This document shows positions 1 through 33,806 of a stretch of 33,806 bases of DNA, piece after piece. Below the pieces are notes generated by a model. That model was not told the DNA's origin. It worked only from the letters and a program-made list of their open reading frames with translations, and ran no database searches. This stretch comes from Butyrivibrio sp. (GTDB lineage: Bacteria > Bacillota > Clostridia > Lachnospirales > Lachnospiraceae): positions 1 through 33,806 of the forward strand of contig JAFPVA010000180.1 in the NCBI GenBank assembly GCA_017413105.1, in the 5' to 3' direction. The first letter of the stretch is position 1. Each line of letters begins with the position of its first letter. The translations under genes were made by a program, and so were the position numbers.

Positions 1-141
1 CTGTTCACTCGCTTGCAGCTCGCTCCAGTAACGAATTCGCGCATTCATTCCAATTCGACTTCGTCGAAGAAATGCGCTCACTCCTGAATCACTTTCTCAC
101 GAAATGCGCAGCAGAGTGCGCATTTCTGTCTGAACAGTAAC
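1..141 (-). repeat. Structured repeat element, copy B (cut by window edge)
   Basis: This is the reverse complement of the element at 6128-6274, differing at only a few bases. Read on the minus strand it has the same order: terminal arm ending TGTTCA, a 9-bp hairpin AAATGCGCA/TGCGCATTT, a conserved linker, a GCGCATT/GAATGCGC stem enclosing TTCGAC-GAA-GTCGAA, then GTTACTGG and the right arm GAACAG. The outer few bases of the right arm lie beyond position 1. It contains no credible reading frame. A Rho-independent terminator follows directly on the plus strand. Confidence 0.85.
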
Positions 142-3528: not shown

Positions 3529-4452
3529 ATGGAATTTAAAAAGGTGGTAATAATCGGTGCAGGAGCAGTGGGATGTTATATCCTGTGGGGGCTTTCTCAA
3601 AAGGAGAACTTAGAGCTAGCTGTGATTGCATCAGGTGAACGCAAGGAAAGATTTGAGAGAGACGGTTTTTTCATAAATGATGACTTATTCAAGCCGGTTG
3701 TAAAGACACCATCAGAGGCATACGGAGCAGATCTTGTTATTGTGGCGGTTAAATATAACGCATTGAAATCGGCGGTTTCAGATATAAAAGAGATTGTTGA
3801 TGAGCATACTGTTGTGATGAGCCTTATGAATGGCGTTGACAGTGAGGAAGTGATAGTTTCTGAAATCGGTGAAAGTCATATAGTGCCTTCGCTTATTAAG
3901 GTCGCATCAGAAAGAAGAGAAAACAGAGTATATTTCGATCCGGATTCTACAATAGGCATTGTGTATGGAGAAAAAGATGGAAAAAGTACGGATAGAACTG
4001 AAGCGTTGGCCAGGTTATTTGAAGGAACAGGACTACACTACAGAGAGACGGACGTAATACTGTCAGAAATATGGAGCAAGTTCAGATTGAATGTAGGCAA
4101 TAACCAGCCACAGGCAATACTTGGTGTGGGTGTAGGTGCGTATAGCGACAGTGAGCACGTTGCAGCCATCAGGGAAGGCCTTGTAAAAGAACTGGATGCT
4201 ATTGCAAAAGCAAAGGGGATAGACATATCTAAAGCTGATTCTTCATCCTTCAGAGGTTCGAAGGTTTCCAAGAGAGCGAGATATTCAACCCTGCAGGATC
4301 TTGATGCAAAACGTCATACAGAAGTGGATATGTTTTCCGGGGCTCTTGTCCGCATGGGTAAAGAACTTGGAATACCCACTCCTTATAACGAATTCACTTA
4401 TCACATGATAAAGGCACTTGAAGAAAAGAATGATGGGTGTTTTGAGTACTGA
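3529..4452 (+). CDS. Ketopantoate reductase (ApbA/PanE) family protein (307 aa)
   Basis: An N-terminal Rossmann fold with VVIIGAGAVGCYIL (residues 6-19) binds NADP(H). VIVAVKYNALKSAV and VVMSLMNGVDSEEVI are typical of the family, and the C-terminal helical domain includes EIWSKFRLNVGNNQPQAILG, the counterpart of the substrate lobe. Family members reduce 2-dehydropantoate to pantoate, but many paralogues act on other 2-oxo acids. Without panB/panC nearby the true substrate is uncertain. I use the ATG at 3529 (GAGG about nine bases upstream) rather than the in-frame TTG at 3514. It follows the flavin reductase by 19 bp. A terminator ends the unit at 4504-4540. Confidence 0.8.
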   Translation: MEFKKVVIIGAGAVGCYILWGLSQKENLELAVIASGERKERFERDGFFINDDLFKPVVKTPSEAYGADLVIVAVKYNALKSAVSDIKEIVDEHTVVMSLMNGVDSEEVIVSEIGESHIVPSLIKVASERRENRVYFDPDSTIGIVYGEKDGKSTDRTEALARLFEGTGLHYRETDVILSEIWSKFRLNVGNNQPQAILGVGVGAYSDSEHVAAIREGLVKELDAIAKAKGIDISKADSSSFRGSKVSKRARYSTLQDLDAKRHTEVDMFSGALVRMGKELGIPTPYNEFTYHMIKALEEKNDGCFEY

Positions 4453-4503
4453 TCAAATGTAATACCATTTCCTCTGGAGGCAGTAAAAAGAGGGATAAAG
4501 GCG

Positions 4504-4540
4504 ATAGCTCTGGAGTTATTAGACCCAGGGCTATTTTATT
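4504..4540 (+). terminator. Rho-independent terminator
   Basis: ATAGCTCTGG (4504-4513) pairs with CCAGGGCTAT (4525-4534) with one G-T pair, followed by a T-rich stretch. Confidence 0.8.
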
Positions 4541-4648
4541 TTTCTCTGAAAAAATATGTGATTGCATGAATGATTTAAAAATGGAGCTGCTGGGTTATAA
4601 TGGATTTGACAGGATTGGAAGATACCAGTGAGGAACGAGGTTTTGAAA

Positions 4649-4966
4649 ATGGATAATCGTATCGAGTGGGCCAGAAAACATGACGAGGTGGTCAGTGCAG
4701 TTACTGGTTTGGGGTTCCCGGGGGAGCTGGGAGATCAGGTTGCAAAACAGCTTGGAAGCCCGAAAGCAATGGAGCGGATGCTTGCATATCTTTATAATGT
4801 GAAGCCAAAGAGTGCAGAACTAATAGTTGATGAAATGCTTGCTATCTGCAGTGATGTAGACCGATGGAAGGATAAAAAGGCAGCTGAAGAAGCTAATGCC
4901 AGGTACAATGAGATTCTTTACTACGGAATTGGAGGAGATGGGGATAATGTTGCCGACGATAGATGA
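4649..4966 (+). CDS. Small helical protein of unknown function (105 aa)
   Basis: I do not recognise a named family, though the sequence has the look of a conserved Lachnospiraceae protein. It is mostly helical and charged, with WARKHDEVV near the N-terminus, a middle LGFPGELGDQVAKQLGSPKAMERM and a later VDEMLAIC. It contains one cysteine and no membrane segment. The ATG at 4649 is preferred because ACGAGG lies eight bases upstream; the in-frame GTG at 4628 is weaker. A -10-like TATAAT stands at 4596-4601. It lies nine bases before the next gene and is probably co-transcribed with it, the tautomerase and perhaps the HNH gene. Confidence 0.7.
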   Translation: MDNRIEWARKHDEVVSAVTGLGFPGELGDQVAKQLGSPKAMERMLAYLYNVKPKSAELIVDEMLAICSDVDRWKDKKAAEEANARYNEILYYGIGGDGDNVADDR

Positions 4967-4975
4967 AGGTGAGAA

Positions 4976-5275
4976 ATGTATTCAGAAATAATTATTTGTC
5001 TTAAGGATAATGCTGATGAAATATTTGAAAAGCAAGTGAAAATGCTGAAGGAACGGAATCATTCGCAGGTGCTGCACATGGGACCAAAAGAAGCCGCTGA
5101 TTACATAAAGATATGTTCATCAGATATTCTTTTTATAAGTGATGATGAGGATATGCTTTCAAAGGCCAAGGAAATCGGGCTTGCAACAAATAACCCGGCC
5201 ACAATGAGAGAATCCTACATGAAAGCGATGGAAATGCTTAAAACTATAGGTATGAATGGAGGACAAAAATGGTAA
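4976..5275 (+). CDS. Hypothetical protein, possibly a reduced HAD-like fragment (99 aa)
   Basis: There is no confident family. The segment SSDILFISDDEDMLSKAKEIGLATNN resembles the last strand-helix unit of HAD-superfamily hydrolases (the acidic DD followed by an alanine/glycine helix). However, the nucleophile DxDxT motif is absent and the protein is far too short to be an active HAD enzyme, so it could be a decayed or specialised remnant. The ATG at 4976 has AGGTGAG upstream and lies nine bases after the preceding stop, indicating translational coupling. The following gene, a tautomerase, begins 71 bp downstream with its own strong ribosome site. Confidence 0.55.
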   Translation: MYSEIIICLKDNADEIFEKQVKMLKERNHSQVLHMGPKEAADYIKICSSDILFISDDEDMLSKAKEIGLATNNPATMRESYMKAMEMLKTIGMNGGQKW

Positions 5276-5346
5276 AGCAGATAATTCAACAGGAAATACC
5301 TATCTGAGTATTTGCGCGGAGAGAACGTGGATAAGGAGGATTAAAA

Positions 5347-5691
5347 ATGCCATTTATTTCAACAAAGACGAACGTTACAGTATCAAAGGAAAAAGAGACA
5401 CAGCTTAAAGAGCGGCTTGGACAGGCTATTTCTATTATTCCTGGAAAGAGTGAGAATTGGCTTATGCTGGCAATTGAGGGTGACATTCCCATGTATTTTA
5501 GGGGAGATGATTCTCAGCCCACAGCATTTATCGAGGTCAAGATCTATGGAAGTGCATCTTCAGATGTGTATGTCAGGATGACAAAAGAGCTGACAGGAAT
5601 ATATGGGGACATTCTTGGGGTTGCTCCGGATCATATGTACATTCGTTACTTTGGCTCCGATGATTGGGGCTGGAACGGAAACAACTTCTAA
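5347..5691 (+). CDS. MIF/phenylpyruvate tautomerase family protein (114 aa)
   Basis: Length and sequence fit the macrophage migration inhibitory factor branch of the tautomerase superfamily. The second residue is proline (MPFISTKTNV), which becomes the N-terminal catalytic base after methionine removal. IPGKSENWLMLAIEGDIPMYFRG and the C-terminal YIRYFGSDDWGWNGNNF match the family layout; the trimer interface is formed by such C-terminal strands. Known members tautomerise phenylpyruvate, but the physiological role in bacteria is usually unclear. AAGGAGGA lies seven bases upstream. The last dozen codons have a degraded second copy at 9691-9732, showing that a paralogue was once present there. 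Confidence 0.85.
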   Translation: MPFISTKTNVTVSKEKETQLKERLGQAISIIPGKSENWLMLAIEGDIPMYFRGDDSQPTAFIEVKIYGSASSDVYVRMTKELTGIYGDILGVAPDHMYIRYFGSDDWGWNGNNF

Positions 5692-5773
5692 TATAGTGCC
5701 TGCTTTATTGGTCTGTGGGAAAGCTTTGATGTGAGGAATACCGTTGCAGTAGTGAGAATTCTTTGGGGGAAAT

Positions 5774-6070
5774 ATGAGGGGACAAAAGCAAAGAAAATCA
5801 GAGATTAAACGTATTGTTCTGGAAAAAACTGATGGGTTGTGTGCTCGTTGTGGAAAGGCGATTTCCTTTGAAAAAACAACAATAGAACATTACGTGCCTA
5901 AATACAGAGGCGGAGCTGATGATGAAAGAAATCTCCTTCCGTTATGCAAGAACTGCAATAAGCAGAAAGGCTCACGAATAGTGGCTGCAGAAGATTACTA
6001 TCCGTATCTTAAGGGCACATTTTGCGTGAATGCTAATGAATATAAAGCTGAATGGGAGCATTATGAGTAG
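5774..6070 (+). CDS. HNH endonuclease domain protein (98 aa)
   Basis: A compact HNH/zinc-ribbon nuclease. Two zinc knuckles, C23xxC26 and C58xxC61, bracket the beta-beta-alpha metal finger; H39 in IEHYVPKYRGG and N53 in DERNLLPLC supply the H and N of HNH. The usual DH is EH here, which is tolerated in many members. It has no recognition domain beyond the core, so the target is unknown; free-standing HNH proteins occur in phage, intron and restriction settings as well as in chromosomal genes. GGGGGA precedes the start. A second start codon (6064) overlaps its stop in ATGAGTAG, implying a coupled partner gene, but that frame is broken by the repeat element at 6128. Confidence 0.8.
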   Translation: MRGQKQRKSEIKRIVLEKTDGLCARCGKAISFEKTTIEHYVPKYRGGADDERNLLPLCKNCNKQKGSRIVAAEDYYPYLKGTFCVNANEYKAEWEHYE

Positions 6071-6171
6071 ATTAAAAGAACTGAGACAGTACATTATCTG
6101 CTCTGCGATTTATCACCATGATGATAAGGTTACTGTTCAGACAGAAATGCGCACTCTGCTGCGCATTTCGT
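6064..6171 (+). pseudogene. Gene truncated by repeat element copy A
   Basis: The ATG overlaps the HNH stop codon, a classic coupled start. The frame reads MSRLKELRQYIICSAIYHHDDK and then runs into the structured repeat (from 6128), where it ends at TGA 6169-6171. Only about 21 codons precede the element, so either a longer partner gene was interrupted by insertion or this is a tiny leader-like peptide. No continuation is seen after the element; a terminator follows at 6280. The interpretation as a broken gene is inference. Confidence 0.4.
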
Positions 6172-6274
6172 GAGAAAGTGAATCAGGGGTGAGCGCATTC
6201 CTTCGACGTAGTCGAATTGGAATGAATGCGCGAATTCGTTACTGGAGCGAGCTGCAAGCGAGTGAACAGTAACC
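6128..6274 (+). repeat. Structured repeat element, copy A (complete)
   Basis: The outer arms GGTTACTGTTCA (6128-6139) and TGAACAGTAACC (6263-6274) are perfectly complementary over 12 bp. Inside are hairpin 1, AAATGCGCA (6145-6153) with TGCGCATTT (6160-6168); the linker CGTGAGAAAGTGAATCA; stem 2, GCGCATTC (6193-6200) with GAATGCGC (6224-6231), enclosing TTCGAC-GTA-GTCGAA; and an internal GTTACTG (6238-6244) that can also pair with CAGTAAC (6267-6273). It is nearly identical to copy B, inverted 6 kb away, and shares architecture but not stem sequence with the copies at 33531 and 33675. No coding capacity is seen. Confidence 0.88.
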
Positions 6275-33524: not shown

Positions 33525-33530
33525 ATATGA

Positions 33531-33671
33531 GTTCTTGGATAAAATTACAGAAATCCGCACTTGCTGCGGGTTTCGTGAGTACATGATTCAAGAGTCAACC
33601 AAGCCCTGCGACGTTAGTCGCCTTCAAATGGCTTGGTTGATACATTCTTGGATTTTATATCCAAGAATGTA
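33531..33671 (+). repeat. Structured repeat element, copy C
   Basis: It has the same order as copy A with different stems. Left arm TTCTTGGAT (33532-33540) pairs with ATCCAAGAA (33659-33667). Hairpin 1 is AAATCCGCA (33551-33559) with TGCGGGTTT (33565-33573). The linker is CGTGAGTACATGATTCA. Stem 2 is TCAACCAAGCC (33595-33605) with GGCTTGGTTGA (33630-33640), enclosing GCGAC-GTTA-GTCGC. A 3' hairpin TACATTCTTGGA (33641-33652) pairs with TCCAAGAATGTA (33660-33671). It begins six bases after a stop codon and is followed at once by copy D. Confidence 0.88.
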
Positions 33672-33674
33672 TGA

Positions 33675-33806
33675 GTTCTTAGATGATATTACAGAAACCC
33701 GCACTTGCTGCGGGTTTCGTGAGAACATGATTCAGGTGGCAAACAAGCCCTTCGACGTAAGTCGACTGGAATAGGCTTGTTTGCTGATATCTTGAATGTT
33801 TCATTC
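33675..33806 (+). repeat. Structured repeat element, copy D (cut by window end)
   Basis: A tandem copy 144 bp after copy C. Hairpin 1 is AAACCCGCA (33695-33703) with TGCGGGTTT (33709-33717), perfect. Stem 2 is GCAAACAAGCC (33739-33749) with GGCTTGTTTGC (33774-33784), enclosing TCGAC-GTAA-GTCGA. The left arm reads GTTCTTAGAT. The right arm is not in the window. Confidence 0.85.

Follow-up and report, generated by a model that had tools for sequence, protein, structure and literature searches.

The 33,806-nucleotide stretch of Butyrivibrio DNA analyzed here, termed the window, contains four copies of a repeat family that is almost certainly mobile and widespread in the Lachnospiraceae. The best explanation of the whole, which is judged somewhat likelier to be right than wrong, is a mobile family that carries a conserved structured RNA, in which one type of element (type 1) would be moved by an IS66-like transposase and the RNA would play a role in cis within mRNA.

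The window is one contig (C140) of a 327-contig, 4.45-Mb Butyrivibrio genome. All four copies (A, B, C, and D), together with the stem pairs that an earlier note on this DNA had quoted for them, were found by direct reading of the window sequence, and their coordinates have been refined to those given in Table 1. The same note held that ATGATTCA is common to the four copies; C and D alone have it exactly, the corresponding letters being GTGAATCA in A and GTGATTCA in B. A and B form one subfamily and C and D another, which means that the four window copies alone give little proof of covariation. Copy A has no target duplication (left ATGATAAG, right CCTGGCAA). Type-2 copies of the D kind, when whole, terminate in ...CATTCAAGATATCAT. 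Repeat copies occupy both ends of the contig (1–141 and 33529–33806), as they do many other contig ends in the same assembly. Because both window ends fall within copies, the family is probably one cause of contig breaks in Butyrivibrio assemblies.

Table 1. Repeat copies in the window and their parts (positions are those of the window)
Feature	Position	Strand	Description
Copy B	1..141	-	Type 1; reverse-strand sister of A; cut by the contig start
Copy A	6129..6273	+	Complete type-1 element, 145 bp
Ends of copy A			Inverted GTTACTGTTCA/TGAACAGTAAC; inside them the core P1-P2 and the 3′ hairpin P3
P1 hairpin of copy A	6144..6169	+	GAAATGCGCA/TGCGCATTTC
P1-P2 linker of copy A	6170..6192	+	Conserved GTGAGAA..TGATTC-type motif, in copy A GTGAGAAAGTGAATC
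P2 of copy A	6193..6231	+	GCGCATTC/GAATGCGC; inner stem TTCGAC/GTCGAA; asymmetric internal loop
P3 of copy A	6238..6273	+	3′ terminal hairpin; right inverted repeat inside
Copy C	33529..33672	+	Complete type-2 element, GAGTTCTTGGAT ... AAGAATGTAT; TAT directly before
P1 hairpin of copy C	33550..33574	+	GAAATCCGCA/TGCGGGTTTC
P2 of copy C	33595..33640	+	TCAACCAAGCC/GGCTTGGTTGA; inner GCGAC/GTCGC
P3 of copy C	33642..33670	+	Terminal hairpin
Copy D	33673..33806	+	Type 2; immediately after C; cut by the contig end

The conserved domain has the layout CAG-[P1]-C, followed by a linker of the type GTRAGAAN(N)TGATTC, a P2 stem with an asymmetric internal loop, and a 3′ hairpin termed P3. When the single sequences were folded as RNA and compared with their dinucleotide shuffles, z-scores of −3.5 for A, −1.8 (weak) for B, −9.4 for C, and −5.5 for D were obtained. 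Selection on structure, which the earlier note had proposed, is upheld by two alignments in which covariation lies far above shuffled and slid controls. Alignment A6 contains 51 copies (49 distinct), all from Butyrivibrio except one titled uncultured Roseburia (L176), and the cross-genus alignment A7 takes one copy from each of 29 genomes; L220 belongs to the genus of the window, and the remaining 28 come from genera other than that one. In the 49 distinct copies of A6, 96.0% of P1/P2 cells are paired compared to 71.2% after shuffling, and in A7 91.7% compared to 61.4%, percentages that are favored because both alignments were fitted to the structure. Both sides have changed in 24 of 26 pairs in A6 and in 23 of 26 in A7. 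The covariation score is 0.618 in A6, compared to 0.162 for shuffled columns and 0.05–0.10 (maximum 0.097) for slid partners, and 0.752 in A7, compared to 0.194 and at most 0.135, respectively.

The variety of the stems is also seen when P1 is read by fixed geometry, which involves no structure-aware alignment: the 82 distinct P1 strings comprise 54 distinct arm pairs, with a few strings clearly out of register. The P1 loop holds an extra covarying pair, which is C..G in 77 of 145 rows, T..A in 51, mixed in 1, and other in 16. In both subfamilies, the stems are less variable than other sites (0.018 vs. 0.081 and 0.009 vs. 0.027 per site and copy). The linker is a strong motif that drifts outside Butyrivibrio. 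Its first part, GT[AG]AGAA, occurs unaltered in 47 of 51 rows of A6, 19 of 29 rows of A7, and 35 of 65 rows of alignment A8; its second part, TGAT.C, does so in 44, 18, and 45 of these rows; and both parts stand at their usual spacing in 41, 15, and 30.

A single transition that weakens a base pair appears as G-U when read from one strand and as A-C when read from the other. Since the two differ by strand, selection on RNA is expected to favor G-U on the acting strand. In P1 and P2, G-U exceeds A-C by 64 to 11 in all 145 rows. The copies were collected with search models that score G-U above A-C, although most of them lie far over threshold. After clustering, the counts are 42 to 7 (75 clusters), 27 to 6 (41 clusters), and 18 to 5 (27 clusters). 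Fixed-geometry P1 gives 24 G-U and 4 A-C, and 15 and 0 in 71 well-formed hairpins. The inverted ends of 61 type-1 elements, by comparison, give 16 of each. These terminal repeats, which act as DNA, are symmetric whereas P1/P2 are skewed, and they therefore serve as an internal control that provides the strongest argument for a sense RNA. Single stem changes amount to 10 G-U and 1 A-C in subfamily A (45 copies) and to 0 G-U and 3 A-C in subfamily C (15 copies). For P3, an initial ratio of 20:1 came from an arm rule that favors G-U; unbiased arm placement gives 39:25, an excess that is not significant (p = 0.10). Judged from these counts, P1 and P2 are very probably under selection as RNA in the same direction as copies A, C, and D. 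The alternative left standing by the earlier note, RNA or single-stranded DNA, now leans to sense-strand RNA for P1/P2.

It could be argued instead that these repeats are plain DNA elements whose hairpins matter as DNA only, by way of cruciforms, transposase binding, or the upkeep of palindromes through template switching, with the RNA unselected. Chimeras of type 1 and type 2 exist (L193 at 5730, L189 at 6796, and L069 at 1481), and these copies include one switch within the P1 loop and one fold-back copy (X-P1-X reversed), which make template switching likely. The A-C changes of subfamily C, the mobility of mini-elements without the whole core, and an orientation bias that is weak outside Butyrivibrio (the last two are described below) likewise fit such an explanation. 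However, a DNA process should be strand-neutral, and the large G-U excess of P1/P2 next to symmetric terminal repeats is not; in addition, unpaired letters of the linker recur across genera. Selection on DNA only is accordingly considered quite unlikely.

The spread of the family was followed with two covariance models, R1, built on the C/D/E core, and the broader R2, built on 51 copies; the E-values of both are rough. In the genome of the window, R1 gave at least 150 matches, a figure that indicates scale and is not exact, as some matches are partial or at contig ends and split copies could count double. A DNA search of the same genome listed 42 matches for A and, with many short hairpins among them, 74 for C; the best 40 of each were scored. 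In 41 genomes, i.e., that of the window and 40 relatives, R1 had matches in 19 of the 25 that belong to the genus and in none of the 16 that represent other families within the order; counts per genome ranged from 0 to at least 101 among the matches listed. A pattern scan of named genomes gave at least 62 stretches, with 61 titled Butyrivibrio and one titled uncultured Roseburia among the matches listed. That more covarying copies exist in related genomes was borne out by R2, which matched 37 of 250 Lachnospiraceae genomes, representing 36 of 249 genera including that of the window, with at most the best 16 candidates per genome scored. In 391 genomes of the class, with the best 10 candidates per genome scored, R2 matched 5, all from the genus of the window; this sample included other Lachnospiraceae that had no match.

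Type-1 elements start sharply at GTTACTG and finish at CAGTAAC. In 48 copies chosen because both ends are recognizable, the 8-bp target duplication is exact in 33 and has at most one mismatch in 43, compared to means of 0.7 and 1.0 for shuffled pairings. Copies from the Lachnospiraceae-wide search have the same layout, often with GTAAC in place of GTTAC, and an exact 8-mer is found in 35 of 90 of them compared to 3.2 after shuffling, under a loose search window in which some 8-mers lie within the ends. Type-1-like ends are present on both sides in 21 of the 29 cross-genus copies of A7. Type-1 copies are small non-autonomous transposons with inverted ends and 8-bp duplications, and the copies are thus mobile elements, which the earlier note did not foresee.

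Shorter and longer versions of these elements are also found. In one genome (G268), the 11-mer GTAACTGTTCA occurs 93 times compared to 4 times for a reversed control. The same genome contains mini-elements of 40, 50, 61, and 79 bp (L310–L315 and L321–L324), several with exact 8-bp duplications. At lengths of 61, 50, and 40 bp, two sites each have exact duplications (L310/L311, L312/L322, and L313/L323), and since the paired sites share the same or nearly the same junction, these sequences moved as mini-elements. The 40–61 bp elements transposed without the whole core, so the core is unnecessary in cis for movement. In another genome (G271; L316–L318 and L325–L327), a 236-bp form whose P2 contains additional long inverted repeats or stems is present at seven sites, with exact duplications at six of them. 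A 700-bp pair with GTTACTATTCA-like ends and an imperfect duplication (5/8) is found in L030 at 276–976. A 2.1-kb inverted pair in L309 was considered as a larger autonomous element of G268 and rejected, as it has no duplication and the genes inside it look ordinary by eye.

The combination of RNA-level selection and target duplications would also be expected of a SINE-like retroelement with the folded RNA as its transposition intermediate. Such an element is highly improbable here, because type-1 elements generally have inverted ends, which match those of IS66-like DDE elements, and because elements of 40–61 bp, which are nearly ends only, have moved. Retro-insertion had been considered for 5′ fragments with duplications (L184, L189, and L183), which first resembled truncated insertions. 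Short direct repeats at junctions of this type indicate, by eye, that most of the fragments arose by later deletions, and the idea was dropped.

DNA transposition of type 1 has a candidate driver in the genome of the window. There, a 909-bp internally deleted IS66-like element (L342, contig C166, 900–1808) has ends that begin GTTACTGTTCAC and carry GTTACTGTTCA on both sides, identical to copy A at 11 of 11 positions. The first 24 bases of its two ends agree at 23. What it retains of coding sequence is a small first ORF and a piece of the transposase end, whose PF03050 match (E = 2.5e-4) falls below cut-off. On contig C88 (L343, 1204–6152), two whole IS66-like elements stand in tandem after the tail of a third, which was recognized from its end sequence and from a short match at the protein level. 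The small upstream ORFs of this locus encode 114 and 123 aa and belong to no clear family. Matches to PF03050 in L343 are above the cut-off (E = 1e-15 and 2e-14, the second from the 590-aa protein of element 2, located at 3663–6152), and matches to NF033517 (E = 8.5e-39 and 8.2e-48) are below the cut-off of that model. Element 2 has the ends GTTACTATTCACGG and CTGTGAATAGTAAC (GTTACTATTCAC ends), which agree with copy A at 10 of 11 positions, and element 1 agrees at 9 of 11. In other genomes, a repeat copy with GTTACTATTCACAG at both ends (L118, G019) matches the right end of element 2 at 14 of 14 positions and has an exact 8/8 duplication, and a copy whose left end is GTTACTATTCACGG (L301, G113) matches the left end at 14 of 14 and also has an exact duplication.

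Duplications of 8 bp are typical of IS66. The IS66-like elements of L342 and L343 have no exact target duplication, and a model search of five IS66 loci in the genome of the window did not find the core. In 14 scanned IS66 loci (L329–L342), both type-1 ends are present in L339 and L342 only; L339 and L340 are parts of L343. The same or nearly the same ends on IS66-like elements in the genome of the window (L342 and L343), together with the common ends in G019 and G113, make it decidedly probable that type 1 is moved by an IS66-like partner. Of the outcomes that the earlier note counted against its interpretation, a match to an insertion-element family applies to the type-1 ends, which are IS66-like, and does not apply to the core in the five loci searched. 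A canonical IS66 resident in every host was rejected, since the search for PF03050 came up empty in 5 of 9 genomes rich in elements. Relatives of the element 2 transposase were matched in 2 of 16 genomes, with none in the other 14. Type 1 is thus probably moved by an IS66-like transposase, which in many present hosts would be absent or too divergent to detect.

Type-2 elements share the core of type 1 but not its ends. Among single copies, 34 were anchored on ATGA; 26 of these have a pyrimidine before AT, 29 have YAT after the last (right) hairpin, and the left Y and the right Y are not the same letter in 7 of 22. None of the 34 has an exact 8-bp duplication, and repeats of 5 and 6 bp show a slight excess (10 and 5 compared to 5.4 and 1.5). 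Tandem type-2 copies are spaced 143–144 bp apart. Type-2 insertions of the C kind are found inside type-1 copies of the A kind. In L078 and L124, type-2 terminal hairpins occur alone, without the core, flanked by YAT-like sites.

A position 3′ of YAT, the lack of duplications, hairpins near both ends, and the regular tandem spacing are features that HUH/Y1 single-strand mobility in the style of REP/RAYT or IS200/IS605 would explain, for type 2 at least. Y1 transposases are, however, out of step with copy number: the genome of the window has one Y1 match, G021 and G017 have none despite 25 and 5 copies, and G005 has six with zero copies. IS200/IS605 was rejected for this reason as the partner of the family as a whole. 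Of 87 listed Y1 matches, 24 loci were examined; no Y1 transposase with type-2 ends was found there, and a copy lies near only two of these loci (L207 and L208). Here, IS605-like elements (tnpA and tnpB) stand a few hundred bases from type-2 copies, apparently as neighbors and not partners. The 8-bp duplications of type 1 also argue against this route, which is regarded as somewhat unlikely. In the preferred explanation, type 1 would be moved in trans by the IS66-like transposase, and type 2 would travel by a separate route.

The placement of copies relative to genes was counted with crude ORFs for 107 copies from Butyrivibrio and 88 from other genera. In gaps between codirectional genes, copies lie in the sense direction in 33 of 45 cases in Butyrivibrio (p = 0.002) and in 23 of 38 cases in other genera (p = 0.26). 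First crude sense counts (28:9, 26:9, and 10:2) were larger than these stricter counts, which are the ones relied on. After a stop codon, 60 sense and 20 antisense copies are found in Butyrivibrio and 31 and 26 in other genera. At most 50 bp separate the stop from 35 of the 60 sense and 14 of the 20 antisense Butyrivibrio copies; for other genera, these numbers are 21 of 31 and 12 of 26. Closeness per se is accordingly not an effect of the sense direction. The sense bias in Butyrivibrio combined with the RNA signal suggests that, at least in this genus, host transcripts include the domain.

From these observations a mechanism can be proposed. The family consists of short non-autonomous mobile elements across the Lachnospiraceae that bear one conserved structured domain, very probably an RNA. 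This domain would be transcribed from a neighboring gene and fold in the mRNA, where it may serve as a cis-acting module for processing, stability, or insulation and thereby render insertions tolerable. That the domain is a cis-acting mRNA module is possible, at a strength somewhat short of even. The core is retained although mini-elements move without it, and selection via the host or via copy survival is the simplest, hypothetical, answer.

The domain might also be a small RNA gene, acting in trans, that travels as a passenger on transposons and regulates, for example, the transposase or a host target. One domain on two end types, linker and loop letters that recur across genera, and the dosage afforded by a high copy number would all suit a gene of this kind. 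On the other hand, the copy number is hard to reconcile with a single regulator, and copies in Butyrivibrio tend to sense positions. A trans-acting gene is thus unlikely, and a role within host transcripts is preferred.

It is usual to judge small mobile repeats from their ends and to take their interiors as filler; here, the interior is the conserved part. If the domain does act on host transcripts, the fate of mRNA would be rewired at very many sites in gut and rumen bacteria, and if it acts on the transposon, it would represent a new form of transposition control. A tentative reading, which falls just below even, is that a new functional RNA class, made up of P1-P2, the conserved linker, and the covarying loop pair, was dispersed among the Lachnospiraceae by two or more unrelated transposon chassis, seeding finished RNA modules into transcripts in dozens of genera.

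Comparison with Rfam 15 gave zero matches at gathering score in the window. In E-value mode, 4 + 20 loci gave unrelated matches only, none at gathering score on an element, and the repeats thus match no Rfam family, in agreement with the earlier note, which knew of no named family with this layout. One sub-gathering match overlaps the edge of an element in L008. In L230, a match to SpF66_sRNA above gathering score lies at 1890–2115, near a tRNA and outside the element. In titles and the starts of abstracts, a literature search found no description of the repeat, which may be included among the 3161 candidate RNAs of PMC8040213. The terms IS66, Lachnospir-, and Butyrivibrio were absent in a term search of the MITE review PMC10969869.

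Among known systems, the IS66 family (PF03050, NF033517) has terminal bases in common with type-1 copies and makes 8-bp duplications, but the repeats have no transposase and their core is unseen in the IS66 loci searched in the genome of the window. REP/RAYT and IS200/IS605 elements resemble the repeats in being palindromic and, for type 2, in the absence of 8-bp duplications and the position behind YAT. They differ in that no matching Y1 element was found in the loci examined, that type 1 has 8-bp duplications, and that the core described here is much more elaborate. The bcr1 repeats of the Bacillus cereus group are small mobile repeats with a predicted RNA fold, and the present family is alike in both respects.

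Bacterial MITEs are short, high-copy, mostly intergenic, and non-coding sequences with inverted ends and target duplications. The Lachnospiraceae repeats are like them in being short and high-copy, with inverted ends and duplications, mostly intergenic, and without coding capacity (for part of these features, see PMC3049150), but differ in an interior that is a conserved RNA fold common to genera and in having two end types. The pneumococcal repeats BOX and RUP are, according to the same source, small structured interspersed repeats for which mobilization by a resident insertion sequence and an influence on co-transcribed genes have been proposed; they occur in pneumococcus and near relatives, and their terminal repeats are paired in the fold (PMC3049150). 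The present repeats are likewise small, structured, and interspersed. In contrast to BOX and RUP as described there, their RNA signal lies in P1/P2 with none in the terminal repeats, and they extend over dozens of genera. The family is of a known kind, MITEs, and for type 1 is probably IS66-driven; what appears to be new relative to Rfam 15 and the literature searched is a conserved RNA interior carried across dozens of genera on two end types.
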